From IMG/VR virus record IMGVR_UViG_3300020000_000048, positions 1 to 33,448 of that record: 33,448 bases of DNA; one strand, 5' to 3'. Below, one piece after another: positions 17-15,456 of this stretch. The first letter of the stretch is position 1, and the number at the start of each line of letters is the position of its first letter. Both the position numbers and the translations under genes were made by a program. A model generated the notes under the pieces. That model did no database searches and had not been told where the DNA came from. It saw nothing but the letters and a program-made list of their open reading frames with translations. The stretch comes from a virus.

Positions 17-340
17 ATGCCGTTCGACGTTGAATCCGCTCGGGAAGCCGGGAGAAAGTCCGGAGAGTCCCGCCGCCGCGCTAAAGACCCAGATGCGGCC
101 GCCCGGGATGCCCTTTTACGGGGCGTCTCGGACTCTGTAGATGTCATCGTTCGCATCGCCCGCGGCACCAGCGGCTTCGATGATGTGAAGCCTGAGCTTC
201 GTTTCAAGGCCGCCCTGACCGTCCTCGAGTACGCCTGGGGCAAGCCGAAGGGAAATCTGGCTCCTGACGAGTCCGAAGATGAACCCGAAGACGCCTTTGC
301 GGCCCTGCTCGGAGGCGACGATGGTGAACCTGCTTCCTAA
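17..340 (+). CDS. Putative terminase small subunit
   Basis: Predicted 107-residue protein directly upstream of the large terminase gene, the usual place of the DNA-recognition (small) subunit of the packaging motor. The N-terminus is basic and helical (GRKSGESRRRAK, residues 12-23). The middle segment RFKAALTVLEYAWGKPKG (about 62-79) resembles the 'R.KAA..LL.RAWGKP' pattern common in phage small terminases and related helix-turn-helix proteins. The C-terminal third is strongly acidic (ESEDEPEDAF), as often seen where the small subunit contacts the large one. The ATG has a good ribosome binding site (GGGAGGAA, about 5-12). The gene overlaps the next one by 20 bases. The call rests on position and one weak motif; it could be another small DNA-binding packaging protein. 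Confidence 0.6.
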   Translation: MPFDVESAREAGRKSGESRRRAKDPDAAARDALLRGVSDSVDVIVRIARGTSGFDDVKPELRFKAALTVLEYAWGKPKGNLAPDESEDEPEDAFAALLGGDDGEPAS

Positions 341-668
341 CGACACGAAGCCTGTCATGTCCTACTCCGGCTATGACCTCATCGATACGACGCCGCTACC
401 CTGGGACAACGCCAGCAGGATGGAGTTGCGCGAGGAGTTCTTCCTCAAGCCCGCCCCGGACGAGGAGTTCGGCGGCATCAACATCTGGGAGCCCGGCGTG
501 GACGACCTCCACACCGTCGAAGTCTCGGACCTGATGGTGCAGGAGGCTGGCAGCATCGAGAAGCTGGCCCAGGCTCTCCACATCCGCCCTGAGGAAATCA
601 TCGGCGCCGTGCAAAATCACTCGCGCAGGACCAGGTTCTACACCGTGCGCGTCCCGGACGGGATGTAG
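321..668 (+). CDS. Small protein with capsid-like N-terminal peptide and HTH-like C-terminus
   Basis: Predicted 115-residue protein between the small and large terminase genes. I chose the ATG at 321 because GGAGG at 311-315 is correctly spaced; an upstream in-frame ATG at 279 lies deeper inside the previous gene with no such site. Residues 7-25 contain NDT and then YSGYDLIDTTP, which nearly repeats residues 60-76 of this phage's major capsid protein (NDT, YSGYDIIDTTP). The similarity continues as E-x-R-[EQ]-[EQ] at the same spacing further on. The rest is acidic, then a helix-turn-helix-like stretch (SIEKLAQALHIRPEEIIGAV, about 82-101) and a basic end. I do not recognise the family. Its place suggests a role in packaging or prohead interaction, which is inference. 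Its stop TAG overlaps the GTG of the next gene by one base. Confidence 0.75.
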   Translation: MVNLLPNDTKPVMSYSGYDLIDTTPLPWDNASRMELREEFFLKPAPDEEFGGINIWEPGVDDLHTVEVSDLMVQEAGSIEKLAQALHIRPEEIIGAVQNHSRRTRFYTVRVPDGM

Positions 669-2185: not shown

Positions 2186-4030
2186 TTGCCGCTCGAAACC
2201 ATCTACAACCCCGCCCTGGACGAGGACGAGGGCCTGCTGAAGGTCTACGGCAGGCGCCTCATAGTCGCCGACAACAAGTTCAGGAAGTCGGAGCCCCTCC
2301 GGAAGCGGTTCGTCTCTCGCTACGAGAACAACCTGCAGGAAGACCAGGTAACCGACGAGGGCCACGTCGTCTCGGTGACCTCTGGCATTGGCGTCATCGA
2401 CACGATGTACGCCAGCATGACGGCGGTGGATGTAGAGTTCATCTGCCGCAACGCCGCCCACGGCACGCAGCTCCAGGCGCTCGCGAGCACCGCCGGTCTC
2501 AACCAGGCGTGGCGCGACTCGAAGGGGCAGAAGCACGCGAAGGACGCGGTGAAGGATTCTCTCCTGGTCGATATCGGCTGGGTTAAGGTGTACTACGACT
2601 ACAAGGAAGCGCAGGGGACGATGGATGTCCCGGCGGAAGCCTTGCGGAAGCAGATTGAGGAGATTGCGGTCAAGCGCAACATCTCCTATGACGACGTGCC
2701 GGACGAGGAGCTGAACCTTACCCAGAACGTCGATATCGTCATCCGGGACCGGGTGTGCGTGGACTACGTTCCCTGGCAGCTCATCCGCCCGGACCCGACC
2801 GCGAAGCGCATCGAGGACGTCCGCTGGGTCGCCCAGTACACGTTCATGTCCCCCTACGAAGTGAAGAACCATCCCGTCTGGAAGGACTTCGTTCACGAGC
2901 GGTACGGCGAGGAGAAGGGCGACAAGCTCTTGAAGGACCTCGGCGGGGACACCAGGGTCGCCGACTACGGCGACGCCGACCTCTACCGCGAGGTAGAGGA
3001 GGATGAGTTCTCGGACGACCTGCGCTGCACCGTAGTCGAGTTCTGGGACTTCGAGACCGGCCTGGTGACCACCTTCCCGAAGGGCAACTCGGAGCTTGTG
3101 CTGTTCCAGCGCGAGAACCCCCTGATGTTCAACTCCGACTTGGAGGACCGCAACCCCTTCAAGCCCCTCATCATCCGCAAGGACAACTCGCAGCTGGAGG
3201 GTCTCGGGGACATGCGGGTCATCTGGCCCGCGCTGGAGGAGCTGGACCAGTACCGGAACAACCTCGCGACGCACATCGAGCGGACCATTCCGAAGGTCAT
3301 CGGCCCTGAGGACGCGCTGACGCAAGCGGGCAAGGAAGCCCTGAAGTCGGCGGAGTGGGGCGCGTTCGTTGGCACCAACGGCGTCTCCGGCGACGCCATT
3401 CAGCCCCTCGTCCCGCCGCCCCTCCCGCAGGAGGCGTTCGACGTTCCCGAGAAGATTCAGGCTGAGATGCGCGAAGGCACGGGGGCGAACGAGGTCATGC
3501 GCGGCCTGTTCCCCGGCGGCCGCCATACGGCGACTGAGGTGCAGCAGGTCACGGACCGCGGCGACATGCGCCAGTCCGAGCGCCGGAGCGCGATGGAGGA
3601 GTGGTATCTCGCCATCTCCAAGACGATGCTCCAGCTGATGATGCTGTACTACGACCAGGACCGAATCCTGAGGTACACCGACGACCTCGGCAAGGACTTC
3701 GAATGGGCGTGGAGCGCCCAGGATATCGCGCTCGACAGCGACATCGAAATCGCCATCACCCCGCGCGAGAACCTCACTCGCGACCAGCGCGTCCAGAGGT
3801 TCCTGCTGCTGATGAACCTCGCCCTGCCGCTCCAGGAGACCGACAGGTACGAGTTCCTGAAGATGGCCGCCCTCGAGATGGGCTACCGGATGGACGACGT
3901 GAACCGGCTGGTGAAGAACCCGGCCGAGGTCCAGGCCGAGAACCAACTTGCTCAGGCGCAAGCGATGGGAGCCGCCCCGCAACCGGGCGCCCCGGGCCTG
4001 AGGCTGACCCCCGCCGCAGGTGGCGGATAA
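2186..4030 (+). CDS. Portal protein (head-tail connector)
   Basis: Predicted 614-residue portal protein, the dodecameric ring at one capsid vertex through which DNA enters and leaves and to which tail proteins attach. It starts at TTG immediately after the terminase stop, with AGGAGA at 2175-2180 as ribosome binding site. The order terL-portal-scaffold-capsid supports the call. So do the length, the acidic/amphipathic alpha-rich composition and portal-like segments: LLKVYGRRLIVADNKFRKSE near the N-terminus, GLGDMRVIWPALEELDQYRN at about 339-358, and an EVMRG-x8-TATEVQQ segment followed by long helices. A Gln/Ala/Pro-rich tail closes the protein. No catalytic motif is expected. Confidence 0.92.
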   Translation: MPLETIYNPALDEDEGLLKVYGRRLIVADNKFRKSEPLRKRFVSRYENNLQEDQVTDEGHVVSVTSGIGVIDTMYASMTAVDVEFICRNAAHGTQLQALASTAGLNQAWRDSKGQKHAKDAVKDSLLVDIGWVKVYYDYKEAQGTMDVPAEALRKQIEEIAVKRNISYDDVPDEELNLTQNVDIVIRDRVCVDYVPWQLIRPDPTAKRIEDVRWVAQYTFMSPYEVKNHPVWKDFVHERYGEEKGDKLLKDLGGDTRVADYGDADLYREVEEDEFSDDLRCTVVEFWDFETGLVTTFPKGNSELVLFQRENPLMFNSDLEDRNPFKPLIIRKDNSQLEGLGDMRVIWPALEELDQYRNNLATHIERTIPKVIGPEDALTQAGKEALKSAEWGAFVGTNGVSGDAIQPLVPPPLPQEAFDVPEKIQAEMREGTGANEVMRGLFPGGRHTATEVQQVTDRGDMRQSERRSAMEEWYLAISKTMLQLMMLYYDQDRILRYTDDLGKDFEWAWSAQDIALDSDIEIAITPRENLTRDQRVQRFLLLMNLALPLQETDRYEFLKMAALEMGYRMDDVNRLVKNPAEVQAENQLAQAQAMGAAPQPGAPGLRLTPAAGGG

Positions 4031-4100
4031 CACACCGAAGACCGAGGCACTAGGTACAGGCGAGAGCCCGAGGCCGAAGTGTACAGCCAGGAGGTGAACC
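4031..4100 (+). promoter_or_regulatory. Portal-scaffold intergenic leader with hairpin
   Basis: This 70-base gap can fold: GTACA (4054-4058) pairs with TGTAC (4080-4084), enclosing GGC-GAGA-GCC (4059-4068) closed by a GNRA-type tetraloop. It ends in a strong ribosome binding site, AGGAGGTGA (4089-4097), for the scaffold gene. It may tune translation of the abundant scaffold protein or act as an mRNA processing site; that is inference. No promoter-like hexamers were convincing. Confidence 0.4.
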
Positions 4101-5039
4101 ATGCCCCACAAGGGCGAAGCAGTGCAGGTGACCAGCGAGCTGGGCGATGCGCTGCAGGAGTCGGGATTCCTCGACACGCTCGATGGCAACGACATCGACC
4201 CGTTCGAGGACCTGGCCAACGGTAGTGACGAAGGCACGGAAGTCCCGAGTGCCGACGGTACGGCTGCTAGTGGTGACGGCGCCAGCGCCGGTGAGAACGG
4301 TTCCGAGGCCGGAGACGGTACAGACGATGTTCTCCCGGACGATTACTGGGGCACGAGCCTCGAAGGCTTGTCCGACGAGCAGAAGCAGAACGTAATCTCT
4401 GCTCTGTCTCAGCGGGACAGCACTATCCGCAAGCTCCAGGCAGAGCTTGCGAAGGAACCGGAAGCGCCAGCGGCACCCGAGGAACCGGAGGATCCCGTGG
4501 AAATCACGGACGACGCCATCCTCGCTGCCATCCTGGGCGACCTCGAACAGGTCTCACCTGACGAGCTAGAGTACGCGCGCAAGACGGCGCTGCCTCTCGC
4601 AAAGCAACTGATGAACCTGGAAGAGACCGTCGAGAAGCTGAGCGAGACCGAGTCCATCCGCGAGACCTCCAGTTTCTGGAACTCCTCGCTGGACAAGTTG
4701 GAAGAGGAATACGGCAAGATTCCGGGTGCCACCCGCACCCAAGTCCTGCAGTATGCCGCGAGGGAAGGCATCGGCGACCCCGAAGTCTTGTACTCCCGAC
4801 TCGTTCTCCAGCAAAGGAAGGCCATCGACTCGGAGGTGGCGAAGGTCCGTCAGCAGTCCGCTAAGCGGGTTGCGTCCGGCGGTCTTCCCCCGCGTTCCAC
4901 CGACGGCGGCAAGAAGGTCTTGGACACCAAAGACAAGAGCCTGAAGGACGTTGTTCGGGAGGCTGCGTTCCAAGCGCAGGAAGATGCGGGTCTAAGCTGG
5001 AAGGACGTCTTTCGCAAGGGACATGCCGGGGCCAAGTAG
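4101..5039 (+). CDS. Capsid scaffolding protein
   Basis: Predicted 312-residue protein between portal and major capsid genes, where podoviruses encode the internal scaffold that shapes the prohead and is then removed. The N-terminal ~100 residues are highly acidic and rich in Gly, Ser, Asp and Glu. The middle (about 105-250) is predicted largely helical with heptad-like Leu/Glu/Lys spacing, consistent with a coiled coil. The C-terminus is basic (DGGKKVLDTKDKSLKD to FRKGHAGAK), matching the known basic helix by which scaffolds bind capsid protein. No protease motif is visible. It has the best-matched ribosome binding site in the head region, in line with high expression. Confidence 0.85.
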   Translation: MPHKGEAVQVTSELGDALQESGFLDTLDGNDIDPFEDLANGSDEGTEVPSADGTAASGDGASAGENGSEAGDGTDDVLPDDYWGTSLEGLSDEQKQNVISALSQRDSTIRKLQAELAKEPEAPAAPEEPEDPVEITDDAILAAILGDLEQVSPDELEYARKTALPLAKQLMNLEETVEKLSETESIRETSSFWNSSLDKLEEEYGKIPGATRTQVLQYAAREGIGDPEVLYSRLVLQQRKAIDSEVAKVRQQSAKRVASGGLPPRSTDGGKKVLDTKDKSLKDVVREAAFQAQEDAGLSWKDVFRKGHAGAK

Positions 5040-5062: not shown

Positions 5063-6010
5063 ATGAGCATCTACAGCGACCAGTTCGATGTTCTGGTCTC
5101 CACCACGCTCGACAAGGTGCGCCCGAAGCTGGCCGACCAAATCACGACCGACAACGCCCTCACGGCTTGGTTGAACTCCAAGTCCCGTGTGACGCTCGAC
5201 GGTGGTTCCGTGATTCGGCGCCCGCTTCTGTTCGCCTTCAACGACACGGTGACGACCTACTCGGGCTACGACATCATCGACACCACGCCCCAGGAGGGCC
5301 TGGGTTGGGCGGAGTACGAGTGGCGCCAGCAAGCTGGCTCCGTCGTCATCTCCGGCGAGGAAGTTCGGAAGAACTCCGGTGCGGCCCAGCTCATCAACCT
5401 CTTGCAGGCGAAGGTGGACCAGCTCCGCATCTCGGTTGCGGACGACATGAACGCGATGCTGTGGGCCTCGTCCGTCGGTAACGGCGGCAAGGACTTCAAC
5501 AGCGTCCCGGTCCTGGTGAAGGACTCGGGCACCATCGCGGGCATCGACCCCAACACGTACACCTGGTGGAAGTCCACCAAGGCCGGTACCATCGACCTCA
5601 CGACCTTCGACGGCGTGTCGGCGATGGTGAACCTCGCGAACACCATCCGGGTCAACAAGAGCCGGGCGGACGTTGCGTTCGCGTCGCAGGCCGTGTACGA
5701 GGCGTACCAGGCCCTCGCGGTCCCGAACATGCGGTTCAACGACAACGGCATGGCGGACCTCGGGTTCGAGAACATCGCCTTCCAGGGCGTGCCGCTCATC
5801 TTCGAGCCGGACGTCCCGTCGGGCACCATCTACATGCTGAACAGCGACCGCTTGGAGTTCGTGCAGCACTCGGCCGCATGGCTGAGCCTGACCGAGTTCC
5901 AGCGTCCGTACAACCAGGACGCCAAGGTCGCCCTCATCCTGTCGATGGGGCAGCTCCTGACCGACTCGCGCCGGAGCCACGGCTTCGCAACGGCGGTCAC
6001 CACCTCGTAA
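5063..6010 (+). CDS. Major capsid protein (HK97-fold)
   Basis: Predicted 315-residue shell protein directly after the scaffold gene. The segment from about residue 50 to 110 (IRRPLLFAF, YSGYDIIDTTPQEG, EYEWRQQAGSVVISGEE, NSGAAQLINLL) follows the pattern of many HK97-fold capsid proteins: E-loop, then the start of the long spine helix. The later segment ADVAFASQAVYEAYQAL followed by FQGVPLIFEPDVPSGTIYMLNSDRLEFV is the characteristic P/A-domain region. There is no N-terminal delta domain or protease gene, consistent with a separate scaffold. Codons are strongly biased to C/G endings, as expected for a highly expressed protein. Confidence 0.93.
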   Translation: MSIYSDQFDVLVSTTLDKVRPKLADQITTDNALTAWLNSKSRVTLDGGSVIRRPLLFAFNDTVTTYSGYDIIDTTPQEGLGWAEYEWRQQAGSVVISGEEVRKNSGAAQLINLLQAKVDQLRISVADDMNAMLWASSVGNGGKDFNSVPVLVKDSGTIAGIDPNTYTWWKSTKAGTIDLTTFDGVSAMVNLANTIRVNKSRADVAFASQAVYEAYQALAVPNMRFNDNGMADLGFENIAFQGVPLIFEPDVPSGTIYMLNSDRLEFVQHSAAWLSLTEFQRPYNQDAKVALILSMGQLLTDSRRSHGFATAVTTS

Positions 6011-6261
6011 CAGAGGTACCCGAACCTGTACTAGCGCAGGGTAAGGGGACCACCCCCGAAGGTGTAAGCAGGAGTCCAAGGGTGAAACCGAGGACAGAGA
6101 GCCCAGGCCTGAATGAGCGTCGCGGATGGCTAGACCATCGGACGTTGTAGGGGGTAGAGGACCGGGGCCAACGGACGGAAATCAAGAAGGAATCCTGCTG
6201 AGCGGGAGACCGGAAAGATGAAAGTCCTGAGGCCCCGGGACCTCTGAACTAGGAGGATTGC
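6011..6261 (+). ncRNA. Structured non-coding region after capsid gene
   Basis: No credible reading frame exists in these 251 bases, unusual in a tightly packed arm. The plus strand can form several helices. GTCC (6074-6077)/GGAC (6092-6095) encloses GGT-GAA-ACC. AGCGTC (6116-6121)/GACGTT (6141-6146) is continued by GATGG/CCATC around a CTAGA loop. A long closing stem pairs AGAGG-A-CCGGGGCC (6156-6169) with GGCCCCGG-GA-CCTCT (6231-6245). Inside it, GGAC/GTCC (6173-6176/6224-6227) and TCCTGC-TGA-GCGGGA (6193-6207) can form. There is no T-tract, so it does not read as a simple terminator. A strong ribosome binding site for the next gene follows at 6251-6256. It could be a structured leader, processing element or separate small RNA; no known family is recognised. 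Confidence 0.55.
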
Positions 6262-6730: not shown

Positions 6731-7171
6731 ATGGCCTACAAGAAGCGTCACATCGAGGGACTGACCTCGGCCGCGCCCACCATCCTGGGCACGCTCGGTC
6801 TCGGCGCGACCTACGCCCGTCCCGTGAGCATGAAGGCGCGGCTTTGGTCCAGCTCGGCGAAGTCCGTCGCTGGTGCCGACACCGCTATCCGGGTGGAGCT
6901 GAAGGACGCGGACGGCAACATCTTCTACCTGGACGCGGCCGACGTGGACTACGCGACCTCGGCGAAGAACTACGTGTTCTCCAAGGACGACACCACGACC
7001 GGCATCACCGGCCACACGTATGTTGACCAGACCGGTGCCACGCTGGCCGGGGTCTCGAACACGTATGCGCCGCTTCCTCCGGTCAAGGGTCCGCTGACGG
7101 TGACCATCCGTAACTGCGGTACCGCCACCGACTACGTCGAACTCGACGTTATCGTGGACACCGGAAACTAA
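6731..7171 (+). CDS. Putative head decoration protein, paralogue A
   Basis: Predicted 146-residue protein, paralogous to the product of 8229-8672. Both contain VELKDADG-x-IFYLDAAD-x-DY in the middle and VKGPxTVTIRNCGTATDY, then a VDTG ending, near the C-terminus. The composition is beta-rich with many Thr, Gly and Asp and no membrane segment. Placement right after the capsid block suggests a capsid-surface (decoration or cementing) role; a tail-accessory role is not excluded. The start has GGAGTAAGGA just upstream. Function is inferred from context. Confidence 0.82.
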   Translation: MAYKKRHIEGLTSAAPTILGTLGLGATYARPVSMKARLWSSSAKSVAGADTAIRVELKDADGNIFYLDAADVDYATSAKNYVFSKDDTTTGITGHTYVDQTGATLAGVSNTYAPLPPVKGPLTVTIRNCGTATDYVELDVIVDTGN

Positions 7172-8228: not shown

Positions 8229-8672
8229 ATGGCTTTCAAGCAGGTTGGGCCGCTCGCTGCGGTCACGAACACGAACCCCAAGGTCCTCGGCACCGTTGAC
8301 CTCGGCTCCCGGTACTGCAAGGTCATCGGGTTCTACGCGCACAACTGGGCCTCGTCCGCGAAGGCGGGCGACGGCACCGACGCGGCCGAGATTGTCGAGC
8401 TGAAGGATGCCGATGGCGTCATCTTCTACCTCGATGCAGCGGACCGCGACTACAAGACCGCCCCCGGCAAGAAGGTCTTCTTCAAGCTGGACGACACAGT
8501 TACCGGCCTGAACGTGGTCGGAGCGGATGCCACCGGCGCCGCGGCAGGGGCAACTACTCCTCTGGACGTTGTGGTGAAGGGGCCGGTCACGGTCACCATC
8601 CGCAACTGCGGGACCGCGACGGACTACTTCGAGATTTACCTCATCGTCGATACTGGACGCAGCAACAGCTAA
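8229..8672 (+). CDS. Putative head decoration protein, paralogue B
   Basis: Predicted 147-residue protein, the second copy of the decoration-like pair. It shares the IFYLDAAD-x-DY and VTIRNCGTATDY signatures with the 6731 gene but diverges at the N-terminus and in the central loop (NVVGADATGAAAGATTPLD). Two paralogues of equal length around a Gly-rich gene suggest an old tandem duplication followed by specialisation, perhaps for different capsid positions. The start has CTGAGGAG about 9 bases upstream. A virion role is inferred from neighbours; no enzymatic motif is visible. Confidence 0.82.
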   Translation: MAFKQVGPLAAVTNTNPKVLGTVDLGSRYCKVIGFYAHNWASSAKAGDGTDAAEIVELKDADGVIFYLDAADRDYKTAPGKKVFFKLDDTVTGLNVVGADATGAAAGATTPLDVVVKGPVTVTIRNCGTATDYFEIYLIVDTGRSNS

Positions 8673-8682
8673 GGGAGGAACC

Positions 8683-9012
8683 TTGGCCACGTACGTCTTC
8701 AGATGCCCGGAATGCTCGACTAGCTATGAAGTAGCTAGCCGCAGCGTTCCGGGCTGTTACACATGCGGGGCAGAGCTGAAGCGCGACTACCGCGCCGAGG
8801 CCGTCGGCATCGCCATCGGCCAGCTGAAGGCCGAGCGCGAGCACTCGAAAGAGGAGCGCATGGCCACGATGCTCCCCACCAACGAGGGCCTGGCCGGTCC
8901 CGGAGACCCCGACGGCACCAAGGGAATCCGCAAGTGGCGGGAGCAGTTCAGCCCGGCTGACGACAACAAGAAGCCGTGGTACCCGGGGACCGTCGAGAAG
9001 AAGGTCTTCTAG
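8683..9012 (+). CDS. Small zinc-ribbon protein (FmdB-like N-terminus)
   Basis: Predicted 109-residue protein starting at TTG with a strong ribosome binding site (GGGAGGA, 8673-8679). The N-terminus, YVFRCPECSTSYEV then GCYTCG, forms two CxxC pairs (C8, C11, C25, C28), typical of a single zinc ribbon like those of FmdB-type proteins. The remainder is charged and helical (RAEAVGIAIGQLKAEREHSKEERMA) with a Trp/Pro-containing tail (KKPWYPGTVEKKVF). Zinc-ribbon proteins of this kind occur among phage structural genes with unknown roles. Its stop overlaps the next start by one base. Confidence 0.8.
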   Translation: MATYVFRCPECSTSYEVASRSVPGCYTCGAELKRDYRAEAVGIAIGQLKAEREHSKEERMATMLPTNEGLAGPGDPDGTKGIRKWREQFSPADDNKKPWYPGTVEKKVF

Positions 9013-9224
9013 TGCAACTGTACATCAAGGAAGATGACGGTTCCGTGGTCGCCACGTACATCGACGGCAACCTGTACGCGCACCCGCGTTTGAATCGCCG
9101 GATGCTGGCGTTCGAGCTGTTCAACCTGATGATTGCGATGGCGGGGGTCGGAAACGGCATGGGCTTTGAGAACAGTGTGGACAAGTCCGGCGACGCGGAG
9201 GACGTTGACGGCGGGACGCCGTAA
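9012..9224 (+). CDS. Small hypothetical protein
   Basis: Predicted 70-residue protein starting at a GTG that overlaps the previous TAG by one base; an upstream in-frame start at 8976 would lie inside the previous gene. The sequence is [18 protein letters not shown], then [19 protein letters not shown] and an acidic C-terminus. A single hydrophobic helix is possible but more likely amphipathic. It ends in TAATG, overlapping the ATG of the collagen-like fibre by one base, so the three genes 8683-10399 appear translationally coupled. Function unknown. Confidence 0.72.
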
Positions 9225-10399
9225 TGCCCCGCTTCGACGAGATTCAGGTCCGCAGGGGCACTGCAGCCCAATGGACCCTCGCGAATCCCACACTCGCTGA
9301 TGGTGAGCCCGGTCTCGAGACCGACACCGGCAAACTGAAGTTCGGAAATGGTACCGATGCGTGGTCGGCGCTTCCGTATCTCACCGGCTCCGGTGGGGGT
9401 GGTGCTGGCCCGGCTGGTCCCACAGGACCTTCGGGGCCACAAGGGTTGCCGGGCCTCGACGGCGAAGATGGCTTGGACGGATGGCCGATTGCAGGGCCTC
9501 AGGGGGTGCAGGGTCCGTCAGGGAGCGCAGGGAGCGCAGGACCGGCAGGAGCCGCAGGGCCCCAAGGCCCTCCGGGCGCTGACGGAAGCGATGGCGACGA
9601 AGGCCCGCAGGGATTCCCCGGTCCCCAAGGTCCACAAGGAACGCAAGGCAACGCCGGAAGCCCGGGCGCTACAGGCCCGCAGGGACCGATTGGACAGGCG
9701 GTATTTGGGGAAGACGGCGACGACGGATGGCCAGGACCCCCAGGAGCGCCAGGAGCAGCGGGGCAGCAAGGAAACACCGGACCGGCGGGGCCGACGGGAC
9801 CAGCCGTCCCGGGCTTCGAAGGGCCGGAAGGCGACGAAGGGCCGCAAGGAATCCCAGGGGCGGCGGGTCCGCAAGGCCCGCAGGGTACCCAGGGAAACGT
9901 AGGACCGACCGGCCCGCAAGGACCACCCGGGCAAGCCATCTTCGGTGAAGACGGAGATGACGGCTGGCCCGGGGCTCCGGGAGCGGCTGGAGCCGCGGGA
10001 GCACCCGGGACGCCGGGAGCGACTGGTCCCCAGGGACCCCCGGGGCAGGCCATCTTTGGTGAGGACGGTGACGACGGTTGGCCGGGGCCTCCCGGCCTCA
10101 CGGGACCGGCCGGTGCATCCGGCGGCTCCGGCACCATCACCGCATTCACGAAGGACCTCGGCACGGCACGGCTGAGCGGGACGTTCGACGTTACCGGACT
10201 CTCCGGTCTGACGGCCGACAGGGACTACACCGTGCGCCAGAGTGCGGCCAAGATTACCAGCAAGGGCGACGCTCGGGACGAGCCCGAGATGGACCTCATC
10301 GATTGCACCGCCTACGCACTCGACGCAACCAGCCTCCGCGTCTACTGGTGGGCGCCTAGCGTCGTCGTCGGAACATACGCCTTCGTGGCGGTCACCTAG
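9224..10399 (+). CDS. Collagen-like tail/surface fibre protein
   Basis: Predicted 391-residue fibre. Residues 1-60 ([20 protein letters not shown], then [20 protein letters not shown]) are the N-terminal attachment module seen on many phage fibres. Residues about 62-303 are Gly-X-Y collagen repeats (GPQGPPG, GPTGPQG), expected to form a trimeric triple helix. They are punctuated by [10 protein letters not shown] at about 161-170, 240-249 and 278-287, and by a related GEDGLDGWP near residue 87. The C-terminal ~90 residues form a compact beta domain ([14 protein letters not shown] to FVAVT). Likely a host-binding or virion-surface fibre. Confidence 0.9.
9704..10084 (+). repeat. Three copies of [10 protein letters not shown] collagen-interruption motif
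   Basis: The 30-base coding unit for [10 protein letters not shown] occurs at 9704-9733, 9941-9970 and 10055-10084, and a fourth time in the second fibre gene at 14617-14646. In this gene each copy follows GQA[VI] and is followed by G[PA]PG. Codons differ at third positions, so the peptide rather than the DNA appears conserved. The units may also be recombination points between the two fibre genes. Confidence 0.85.
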
Positions 10400-10407
10400 G
10401 AGAACTG

Positions 10408-11118
10408 ATGGCAGTCATCAACGACCCGAACACCGCAGCGAACGTGGCGAAGGTCGGCCCGGTGGACACCGCATCGGGAGACCAACCCCTGCATGTTGAC
10501 GTGCGCCCGCCTGGGATGGGTTCACTCGGGCAGTATATTGCGTTCGGCGAGACAGGCTCAATCGCCGCCGGAGCATTGACGAACGGCGAACTGTTCCAGC
10601 TCCGATATACAGGTACAAACATCGTCATCGTTCACAGCGTTATGCTGGAGTACGTCGTGGTCACTACCGCCTTCGTCGCCGGTGAGATGTCTTACAATGT
10701 CATCAAGGCGACAGGCTGGACGGTGGACGGAACCGGTGGCGCTCTACAGACGCCGGAGAAGTTGAGGACATCGTTCGCGGCCCCAACTGCGACCTTCCGT
10801 GTCCCCACGACTGCGGCCCTCGGCGCGGGAACCAAAACGCTCGCCACCAACCCGCTTCGCAAAGTCCGCGGCCAACCCTTGACGGGTGTCGCGGTTGCCG
10901 GTGGTGACCCCATCCTCGCGCCAGGAACGACCGCTGGTGTACCTGCGGGCATCTTCAGCGGCATCCCGCTTTACCCGAGCCCAGCTGCTCCCGACCAGGT
11001 TGTGTATCCGATTCACCTCGTGCAGAACGAGGGCATCGTCGTCCGTATCACACAACCTGGTCGGGAGGTTGCCATCCACGGTGTGACCATTCGATTCTCA
11101 GAAGTATCGGCGTACTAA
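10408..11118 (+). CDS. Putative structural protein (beta-rich)
   Basis: Predicted 236-residue protein between the collagen-like fibre and the adaptor block. It has alternating hydrophobic strands (NIVIVHSVMLEYVVVTTAF, GIVVRITQPGREVAIHGVTI) and little helix, as in jelly-roll or beta-sandwich virion proteins. No membrane segment, cysteine or catalytic motif is seen. The ribosome binding site is TAGGAGAA just upstream. Its stop overlaps the next ATG by one base (TAATG). A base-plate, tail-spike or head-fibre role is inferred from place; family not recognised. Confidence 0.78.
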   Translation: MAVINDPNTAANVAKVGPVDTASGDQPLHVDVRPPGMGSLGQYIAFGETGSIAAGALTNGELFQLRYTGTNIVIVHSVMLEYVVVTTAFVAGEMSYNVIKATGWTVDGTGGALQTPEKLRTSFAAPTATFRVPTTAALGAGTKTLATNPLRKVRGQPLTGVAVAGGDPILAPGTTAGVPAGIFSGIPLYPSPAAPDQVVYPIHLVQNEGIVVRITQPGREVAIHGVTIRFSEVSAY

Positions 11119-12433: not shown

Positions 12434-13390
12434 ATGGCGCTGAGCAAGGTCGGCGCCGCGCCAAACGCCGCATCGAGGAACATTCCCGTCGGGGGTACCT
12501 TGGACATAGTATTCACGCCGGATACGACATGGGTCGCAGGCGACGTGCTCGTGGGCCTCGTTGCATGGGGCGCAGTAGATAACAACCAGCTCTTCACTGC
12601 CCAGCTGTCTGATTCTGCCCTCACCTGGGAGGCCGACACACAGTTCATCCTGGACGCGACAGCGCCTAATGGAGTAGGGTGGCAGTTCAGTTTCCACCCG
12701 GCTTGGGCTCCGTTCTACCACACGGTCACGTCCGGCGAGGCAGGTGCCGGAGCGATTACGCTGACTGCGACGCTGGCCTCGGTTAGTTCGGTAGATGGCT
12801 CCGCCGGTGTTGACCCGGGATTCATCCTCTGCGCCGGGGGTGTGGCAGTGCGCGGCGGAAACATGCCGACCACGGGAGTTCACCTCTGGGTCCCGTACGA
12901 CAGCAGTGACACTGACAACGCCGTCCAGATGTTCGGGGCCTCGCCTCAAACAGCGACGTTCAACGGCCCACTCGACGGCTACTCGGACGGAGAGGTGGGA
13001 CAACTCCTCCTCCACGTTTACGGTCTAAACATGGGTGCCAAGGACAAGACGGGGGGCTCGGCCGTCTGGACCGGACCGACAGAACTCACGGATTATTTCC
13101 TGCAGAACGGCATCGAAACTGGTGCAACAGACGTTGACCTCAACTACGGAATGGCTTACGAGCTGCTCGGAGCGACCGACGACTGGCCCGCTAGCGAGAC
13201 GTGCCAGTGGACCTGGGCCGGGGGAGGCAACTCGTCCGCCTGGGCAATCCGGATGGGATTCGGATTCCTGTCCAGTGCTCCGGTCGAGCCCACAAACCCC
13301 GGCGAACCGTTTCACTTCGACTACAGGCGCCGGAGGTTCGTCGCCTCCGAACTGCCGTACGACGTGAGCGCGCCGAGGATGTTTCCGTGA
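12434..13390 (+). CDS. Putative virion surface protein, beta-sandwich type
   Basis: Predicted 318-residue protein. The first ~270 residues alternate beta strands with Gly/Asp/Thr turns (GDVLVGLVAWGAV, DSALTWEADTQF, GAITLTATLASVSSVDG), resembling modules found in phage and bacterial surface proteins. A short arginine-rich C-terminal segment (FHFDYRRRRFVAS) ends the chain. The protein from 16189 has a similar strand order, suggesting related folds. It starts one base after the adaptor stop. It overlaps the next fibre gene by GTGA, so the two are coupled. A tail-fibre or adhesin role is inferred. Confidence 0.75.
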   Translation: MALSKVGAAPNAASRNIPVGGTLDIVFTPDTTWVAGDVLVGLVAWGAVDNNQLFTAQLSDSALTWEADTQFILDATAPNGVGWQFSFHPAWAPFYHTVTSGEAGAGAITLTATLASVSSVDGSAGVDPGFILCAGGVAVRGGNMPTTGVHLWVPYDSSDTDNAVQMFGASPQTATFNGPLDGYSDGEVGQLLLHVYGLNMGAKDKTGGSAVWTGPTELTDYFLQNGIETGATDVDLNYGMAYELLGATDDWPASETCQWTWAGGGNSSAWAIRMGFGFLSSAPVEPTNPGEPFHFDYRRRRFVASELPYDVSAPRMFP

Positions 13391-15456
13391 ATGACGAAGA
13401 ACAGGTAAGGAAAGAAGACTTCGACCGCCACCGCCAAGCGGTTCAGCAGAACTTCGACAGCATCCAAGGTACCAACCGCCGCAACGTCAAAGAACTGAAC
13501 AAGCTCGCGGCTGATGTCGAGAAAATCATGGAGTTCCTCGGCGTCCAGGTTGAGGGTGACGAAGTGGAAGCGGTCGGCACTTCCGGGAATGCCACCAACG
13601 ACCACGATGAGCTGGAAGGCGTTTCCGAGGACGACCACCACAACCGTCACCACAACGTCCTCTCGACCGACCACAGCGACTCAGACTCGACAGATACGCC
13701 CGTCACCGACGACGTGCTGAAGTGGGATGGCACGAAGTGGATTGCGGACGCAGTGCCGGAAGCCACCAGGACCGGCGGCGTCGGCAAGCGCCGCGGCCCC
13801 CTCGGCGACACCATCATGCCGGAGCACGACCACTTCGAGTGGACCATCCCCGGTCCTCCCGGTCCGCAGGGTCCCACAGGTCCGACGGGTCCGGCTGGCT
13901 CCGGAGGCGGCACCGGTACCGCCGGGCTCGTGCCTCATGACCACGACGAGGAGTACGTCTGGCCCAACCCCGGAGTCCCCGGTCCTGCGGGCGGCACGGG
14001 TCCCACCGGCCCCCAGGGACCGGCAGGCCAGCAGGGAGTCCCCGGATACGACGGCGAAGACGCCTTCGATTGGCCTCTTCCAGGACCCCAAGGACCGGCT
14101 GGTGCGACGGGTTCCGTAGATGCGGGCGTCCGCGTCACCAAGTCCGCTGGGCAGAACATCAGCGGTGCGGGGACCACCGTCGAAATCACCTGGGACCAAG
14201 AGGACTACGACACCGACGGGTACCACGACAACGCGACGAACAACACGCGCTTCACCATCCCCACGGGCAAGGCCGGGTACTACATCATCGAGGGCAACAT
14301 CAACTACGATGCGGACCCCACGGGAGAACGCCGGGCAAGCGTACAGCTGAACGGCAGTACGTTCCTCGTGAACACGCGAATCCGGCCCCCAGGCACGGGC
14401 GAGAACGCGGGCGTAAACGTCGGCACCATGTACTACTTGAACAACGGCGACTACGTCGAGCTATGCGGGGCGCAGACCTCGGGCGGGACCATTCAAGCAC
14501 GCACGACGAGCTTCTTCGCCATTCACCGGCTCGCCGGTCAAGGAGCCGCTGGAGCTGCCGGAGCCGCGGGTACGAACGGCGCTGTCGGCCCTCAGGGTCC
14601 TCCCGGACTCGTGGTCTTCGGGGAAGACGGCGACGATGGCTGGCCCATCCCCGGTCCTCAGGGGCCTAAGGGAGACACCGGCGCTACCGGACCCCCCGGC
14701 GCGGGCGGTGGTGGGACCGGGACGGCCGGGCTGGTTCCTCACGACCATGACGACGATTACCCGTTCCCGGTGTCCTCGCCCGACGCCCGAAAGAAGGGCG
14801 ATATCCTCTGGACCTCCAAGAGGCGGGTGCCTCTGGGCCTTGGGAAGCGCATCTATCCGCGCGTGAGGGGCTCCATCACCGGCATCCGGTTGAACGCGAC
14901 CGTCACCCCGCTGTCGGCCGTCACCGTGGACGTACTGAAGAACGGGACGAGCATCTTCCCCTCGGCCACGAAGCCCTCGCTCTCGGCGGGCAGCTTCCTC
15001 GGAACCGAGCGGGTGCCCGATACGCTCACGTTCACCGAGACCGACTACTTCCAGTTCACATCGCCTTCACCTACCAGACCTAGGGAGCGAAATGGCACTC
15101 ACGACCGCAAGCATCAACAGTGCGACCCCGGCGACGGACCTGTACAACGCCTGGGCGACGCTGTTCACCGCCGCCGGATGGACGAACCTCTCGGATATAT
15201 CGGCCGCGACGGCCGGTACCACCGCCGCCAACAAGGTGTGGGTGACCGCTGCGACGACCGTTGCGTCGAGCGTCTACACCGGCTGCATCGTGTTCATCGA
15301 GGTGGACGACACCAACAACCGCCTGCGCATCCGTTGCGCCGAGAAGTACGACTCCAGCTCCGCCGGAGCGCCCGCGACCGGAACGGTCAAGTGGGCGGTG
15401 CTCGGGTGCAACGCCGCATCGAACAAGACCCCGACGGCGAACTATGCGCTGGATGA
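13387..15456 (+). CDS. Collagen-like fibre with C1q-like domain; apparent frameshift near 15057
   Basis: As written this encodes 689 residues from a GTG overlapping the previous stop (GTGA). Residues 1-50 are a coiled coil. About 70-130 is a His/Asp-rich attachment region (DDHHNRHHN, VLKWDGTKW). Two collagen tracts flank a C1q/TNF-like beta domain at about 245-385 (DTDGYHDNATNNTRF, GKAGYYIIEGNINYD, NNGDYVELCG). [10 protein letters not shown] recurs at 411-420 and GTGTAGLVPHDHD occurs twice. A C-terminal beta domain begins at about 467. After residue 557 the frame becomes Arg/His-rich and runs over the next gene for 365 bases. One missing base near 15057 would restore I-A-F-T-Y-Q-T-stop at 15083 and a 565-residue product. 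Confidence 0.85.
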   Translation: MNDEEQVRKEDFDRHRQAVQQNFDSIQGTNRRNVKELNKLAADVEKIMEFLGVQVEGDEVEAVGTSGNATNDHDELEGVSEDDHHNRHHNVLSTDHSDSDSTDTPVTDDVLKWDGTKWIADAVPEATRTGGVGKRRGPLGDTIMPEHDHFEWTIPGPPGPQGPTGPTGPAGSGGGTGTAGLVPHDHDEEYVWPNPGVPGPAGGTGPTGPQGPAGQQGVPGYDGEDAFDWPLPGPQGPAGATGSVDAGVRVTKSAGQNISGAGTTVEITWDQEDYDTDGYHDNATNNTRFTIPTGKAGYYIIEGNINYDADPTGERRASVQLNGSTFLVNTRIRPPGTGENAGVNVGTMYYLNNGDYVELCGAQTSGGTIQARTTSFFAIHRLAGQGAAGAAGAAGTNGAVGPQGPPGLVVFGEDGDDGWPIPGPQGPKGDTGATGPPGAGGGGTGTAGLVPHDHDDDYPFPVSSPDARKKGDILWTSKRRVPLGLGKRIYPRVRGSITGIRLNATVTPLSAVTVDVLKNGTSIFPSATKPSLSAGSFLGTERVPDTLTFTETDYFQFTSPSPTRPRERNGTHDRKHQQCDPGDGPVQRLGDAVHRRRMDEPLGYIGRDGRYHRRQQGVGDRCDDRCVERLHRLHRVHRGGRHQQPPAHPLRREVRLQLRRSARDRNGQVGGARVQRRIEQDPDGELCAG

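Follow-up and report, generated by a model that had tools for sequence, protein, structure and literature searches.

A short peptide matching the predicted capsid E-loop tip in a small packaging-region protein of a virus record

The 33,448 bases of the window, meaning the whole stretch of DNA that was analysed, make up one virus record. From position 17 its genes run on the plus strand in the order terS-like gene, small gene, terL, portal, probable scaffold and major capsid gene. The first of these resembles genes for the terminase small subunit (terS, 17–340; phrog_15261, E 3.3e-05, with a weak match to the small terminase family phrog_10899, E 0.22), and a terS-like gene is also found upstream of terL in relatives. 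It is followed by a small packaging-region gene of 115 aa (321–668), the terminase large subunit gene (terL, 668–2185; phrog_2, E 6.3e-37, and Terminase_6N) and the portal protein gene (2186–4030; SU10_portal, E 2.4e-13, and P22_portal). A probable scaffold gene, conserved in relatives and named by its position between the portal and capsid genes only, lies at 4101–5039, and the major capsid protein of 315 aa is encoded at 5063–6010 (phrog_9953, E 1.6e-60, over residues 9–310).

The operon is otherwise tight, and about 250 bases without a clear gene lie immediately 3′ of the capsid gene (6011–6261), with no Rfam match and no significant similarity to the gap at 4031–4100. Further downstream a 326-aa gene is flanked by a pair of genes for paralogous proteins (6731–7171 and 8229–8672; 48.6 % identity, E 3.6e-38), the products of which are probable duplicated cement or decoration proteins. 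Collagen-like repeats (GPQGPxG) mark 9224–10399 and 13201–15456 as probable fibre genes.

The coding status of the small gene was assessed from codon usage and from its context. The ORF at 321–668 had a per-codon log-likelihood of 0.354 in frame, the other five frames being negative, and a GC3 of 0.89, and its codon signature matches that of the neighbouring genes. A GGAGG ribosome site at 311–315 precedes the ATG (321) by 5 nt. At its 5′ end the gene shares 20 nt with terS, and at its 3′ end the final G of the TAG stop also opens the GTG start of terL. Based on the codon signature, the GGAGG site and the overlaps with terS and terL, it is almost certain that the small gene and the terminase genes are translated together.

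AlphaFold gave a poor model of the small protein (mean pLDDT 49.8), with residues 1–62, including the motif described below, unstructured and a small alpha/beta domain at about residues 63–110. Helices were predicted at 70–76 and 79–85 in a block of pLDDT 69–75. A possible but unproven helix-turn-helix covers residues 77–97 (549–611, plus strand); its match to Pfam HTH_26, at 11.9 bits (E 0.27) against a cut-off of 22, does not place the protein in the HTH DNA-binding class. No PHROG match was found for the small protein, and Foldseek returned no fold match for the models at E < 1. The predicted architecture is an E-loop-like N-terminal tail followed by a C-terminal domain with a weak HTH match.

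The sequence-only reading had pointed to YSGYDLIDTTP in the small protein (363–395) and YSGYDIIDTTP in the capsid protein (5258–5290), and both positions proved exact. In 12-mer form, the peptide reads SYSGYDLIDTTP in the small protein and TYSGYDIIDTTP in the capsid protein; the wider copy in the small protein, NDTKPVMSYSGYDLIDTTP, spans 339–395 on the plus strand. Likewise, the count of 27 identical bases in the 33-base core was reproduced, with five of the six changes synonymous and a single replacement (CTC/ATC). The flanking resemblances that had been reported around this core fared less well. NDT does precede it in both proteins, but the small protein has 5 intervening residues against 3 for the capsid protein, which leaves a gap of 2 residues. 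Downstream, an E-x-R-[EQ]-[EQ] pattern does follow at equal spacing, but it is weak because similarity stops sharply after the core (2 of 15 residues and 14 of 45 bases identical), and the score of the 15-residue downstream flank is reached by 7 % of windows drawn from the phage’s other proteins and is not significant. A longer capsid homology around the core was rejected, the downstream flank being unrelated.

The best ungapped score between the small protein and the capsid protein was 63, compared with an average of 27 and never more than 50 among 1000 shuffles of the small protein, and a Gumbel fit to this null gave P of about 3e-6 for the pair. When the whole window was compared with the capsid protein, every other frame scored 47 or less. 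In a 12-mer motif PSSM the small-protein copy scored 46.0, the maximum, and in the loci compared matches outside capsid genes reached at most 13, except for one further protein (25.0) discussed below. The match is short, as a chance resemblance would be, but given the P value and the distance from the next best frame (47 against 63) we consider chance a negligible explanation. It is also very improbable that the bases themselves are what is shared, as a common DNA or RNA site, for example for translational control, that falls in frame in both genes by coincidence. The 82 % identity of the 33-base core would suit such an element, but the window has no Rfam match and, because five of the six changes are silent, it is the protein rather than the bases that appears to have been kept.

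The position of the motif within the capsid protein was examined next to an alignment of 19 diverse capsid proteins, all of which, like the window’s own, match phrog_9953. Thirteen columns were invariant, seven of them in the motif stretch (NDTVTTYSGYDIIDTTP, 5240–5290, plus strand), where T62, G68, Y69, D70, D73, T75 and P76 are the invariant residues. Across these aligned sequences, the motif stretch is an invariant signature of the capsid superfamily. The full set of these E-loop-tip residues, T, G-Y-D, D and T-P, is present in the small protein (NDT...GYDLIDTTP), and its 12-mer SYSGYDLIDTTP is the common form among relatives, from which the window’s own capsid protein differs by T and I at two positions. 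The resemblance extends no further into the capsid fold. Only profile positions 60–76 of the capsid HMM align to the small protein (14.3 bits), and by profile it is not an HK97-fold major capsid protein with N-arm, E-loop, P and A domains. Of the suggestion that the small protein is a capsid-derived fragment, a similarity that is not due to chance and looks capsid-derived was retained, and the shared part was narrowed to a short peptide that contains no capsid domain.

The relatives’ capsid profile matches solved capsid proteins (6j3q_A, E 3.6e-08; 7f38_A, E 8.1e-06). The alignment to 6j3q_A begins at profile position 108, so that the motif lies upstream, outside the alignments to solved structures, and directly ahead of a predicted spine helix at 105–134. 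AlphaFold models of the capsid alignment (mean pLDDT 30.7, low confidence) and of the small protein (49.8) were set aside as too poor for structural placement of the motif. In the capsid protein of GP4, the E-loop comprises residues 48–91 and the P-domain starts at 92 (PMC9698820). This order, with the motif followed by the spine helix and by the alignment to solved structures, agrees with the earlier expectation that the motif lies in the E-loop zone and places it, by topology rather than from a model of the capsid protein itself, at the predicted E-loop tip. E-loops of known capsids make subunit–subunit contacts (PMC8569155; PMC6813328).

To describe the origin of the copy, its bases were compared with capsid genes of relatives. 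The capsid motifs of other phages are at least as close to it as that of the window’s own capsid gene, with up to 31 of 36 bases identical; it differs from sampled capsid genes at 5 or more of 36 bases and from its own capsid gene at 6 of 33. Two of its codons, TAT and GAT, are missing at those positions from the relatives’ capsid motifs (26 distinct sequences); both are silent, both are present in the wider superfamily, and there is no replacement relative to the consensus. On these base comparisons, the copy would be either an old one preserved by constraint on the protein or a patch whose donor was a more distant capsid gene. The protein-level constraint proposed earlier is consistent with the silent changes, and so is the more distant donor.

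Conservation of the pair, which the sequence-only reading had named as a source of support, was absent in relatives. Searches with the whole small protein in viral contigs and phages, and with its tail in viral contigs and plasmids, returned no homologue; Klebsiella phage topoisomerase matches (E 0.3–0.4 at 31 % identity) were dismissed as chance. In 48 related records the small protein gave only short matches, confined to the motif stretch. Among relatives with terL, the slot between terS and terL had no small-protein homologue and instead held unrelated small genes, often for a short membrane protein. The motif pattern occurred exactly once per record in 20 of 20 relatives, each time inside the capsid gene, and whole records of ten described phages with related capsid proteins gave two motif-pattern matches, each falling by coordinates within the capsid match of its record and none elsewhere. 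Among the records searched, the small gene is lineage-specific. The prohead-binding or packaging-checkpoint role proposed earlier for the small protein is a hypothesis that this conservation pattern does not back. A small ORF between terL and portal at another locus (L224, 2786–3445) was rejected as a further case; its RYLGFEIIDIVP loosely resembles the L224 capsid motif SYSGYDVIDITP, with the invariant residues broken, no phage relatives and a score near chance level. Motif-like matches in L127/L083/L021 and in L233, which lie near chance and on the locus’s minus strand, were also discarded.

A second carrier was found on L040, the contig of a distant relative with a capsid protein 42 % identical to that of the window. 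Here RESPGYDVIDTTP, with GYDVIDTTP, occurs independently in an unrelated 178-aa head-module protein, encoded between portal and scaffold and having a Zn-ribbon-like start, MPIYELECQKCG. Its motif DNA agrees with the contig’s own capsid gene at 22 of 26 bases. In bacterial and archaeal genomes totalling 257 Gb, the nonamer pattern occurs at only 12 places, of which about 9 are not in capsid genes; given this rate, fewer than 1e-4 occurrences would be expected across the capsid-bearing loci, which total about 1.6 Mb (redundant, many overlapping), and a chance nonamer is unlikely. The window itself encodes a Zn-ribbon-like protein (8683–9012; MATYVFRCPEC...CYTCG, TTG start) of the same general kind as this carrier but without the motif. 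L040 also has a palindrome-like TTCAAACAGTTTGAA 11 times (two copies being TTCAAACTGTTTGAA), for example at 8873–8887 and 10945–10959, spaced about 0.6–1.7 kb apart and in some cases just before gene starts; these repeats are possibly dispersed operators or stoperators.

The two carriers bear on whether the peptide was inherited or arose separately. Independent binding peptides for a common partner, converging on one short linear motif without common descent, could explain why the match covers only about 12–19 residues, why the downstream flank is unrelated and why the two carrier proteins are unrelated to each other. The base-level agreement, 27 of 33 including codon choice in the window and 22 of 26 with the own capsid gene in L040, is a better fit to descent, and we regard convergence as unlikely.

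L040 also contains capsid-gene fragments at 1707–1832 (52 % identity, E 8e-10) and 1505–1624 (45 %, E 3e-5), pieces of a second capsid gene in swapped order and apparently decayed. Together with the carrier, these indicate that within the superfamily capsid sequence does get copied into other genes, and the decayed pieces indicate that capsid debris can spread without function. The small-gene peptide may itself be such debris, captured from a capsid gene by illegitimate recombination and inert, with the remainder of the protein having its own role. This is a serious possibility, nearly as likely as a functional peptide, and would be consistent with the absence of conservation among relatives as well as with the L040 fragments. 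Less easily accommodated are the invariant residues, all intact with mostly silent differences in a copy that is not recent from any sampled capsid gene, and the presence of the same peptide in a second head-module protein.

The reading that we tentatively favour, on sequence evidence, is that an E-loop-tip patch of a capsid gene was captured by a lineage-specific small gene and probably serves as a peptide for docking on the prohead or on an E-loop partner. The non-chance match, the retention of all superfamily-invariant residues, the sharp downstream edge, the signs of translation, the location in a head/packaging operon and the second case in L040 are in its favour; against it stand the failure of the searches to find a homologue, relatives that do without the small protein, the poor model, the non-significant flank pattern and the debris in L040. 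The capture would have involved a patch of about 36–57 bp, from the phage’s own capsid gene or from that of another superfamily phage, introduced by short recombination into an otherwise unrelated gene. The flexible N-terminal tail would then dock where E-loop tips normally dock, that is, on the neighbouring capsid subunit at the prohead surface or beside the portal, or alternatively on whatever reads the E-loop, such as a scaffold or cement protein. With its tail docked in this way and its C-terminal domain perhaps touching terminase or DNA, the small protein could act as a minor head or packaging accessory. A broader proposal, that phages of this superfamily repeatedly give unrelated small head-module proteins the E-loop-tip peptide as a plug-in docking tag for prohead acceptor sites, is rather doubtful.

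A different use of a free peptide would be as a decoy that occupies a sensor of capsid-sensing host immunity. Such immunity exists, as outlined for Thoeris (PMC12578639), and no other part of the capsid protein is as invariant as the peptide, but no known sensor reads the E-loop tip of this capsid family and the small gene sits in the head operon; a decoy role is quite improbable. If the peptide does dock, it would be a natural E-loop mimic marking the E-loop acceptor site on proheads, and capsid assembly interfaces would be copyable between genes as short peptides. If it is debris, the gene would be a clean example of very short-patch gene fusion within a phage head operon.

The literature covered, most of it outside subscription journals, yielded no account of an accessory protein bearing an E-loop peptide, and the nearest comparisons are with two SaPI proteins and with the capsid families themselves. 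Among the major head proteins of phrog_9953 / phrog_14242, the window’s capsid protein matches phrog_9953, whereas the small protein matches the capsid profile by the motif stretch only. SaPIbov5 Ccm, a homologue of the capsid protein through which phi12 capsid assembly is redirected (PMC8569155), is similarly the product of a separate gene and related to the major capsid protein. Ccm, however, has the complete HK97 fold of a capsid protein, including an E-loop of its own, and its effect on assembly has been demonstrated, whereas the small protein has the E-loop-tip peptide only, is phage-encoded and is known from sequence. In SaPI1, CpmB and the 80alpha scaffold compete for one capsid-protein site (PMC5644958), a precedent for a small protein that takes up a place on the capsid where an assembly partner would normally bind. 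CpmB rivals the scaffold, whereas the peptide of the small protein, for which docking is a prediction, is copied from the capsid protein itself. Neither CpmB nor Ccm copies the E-loop tip alone.
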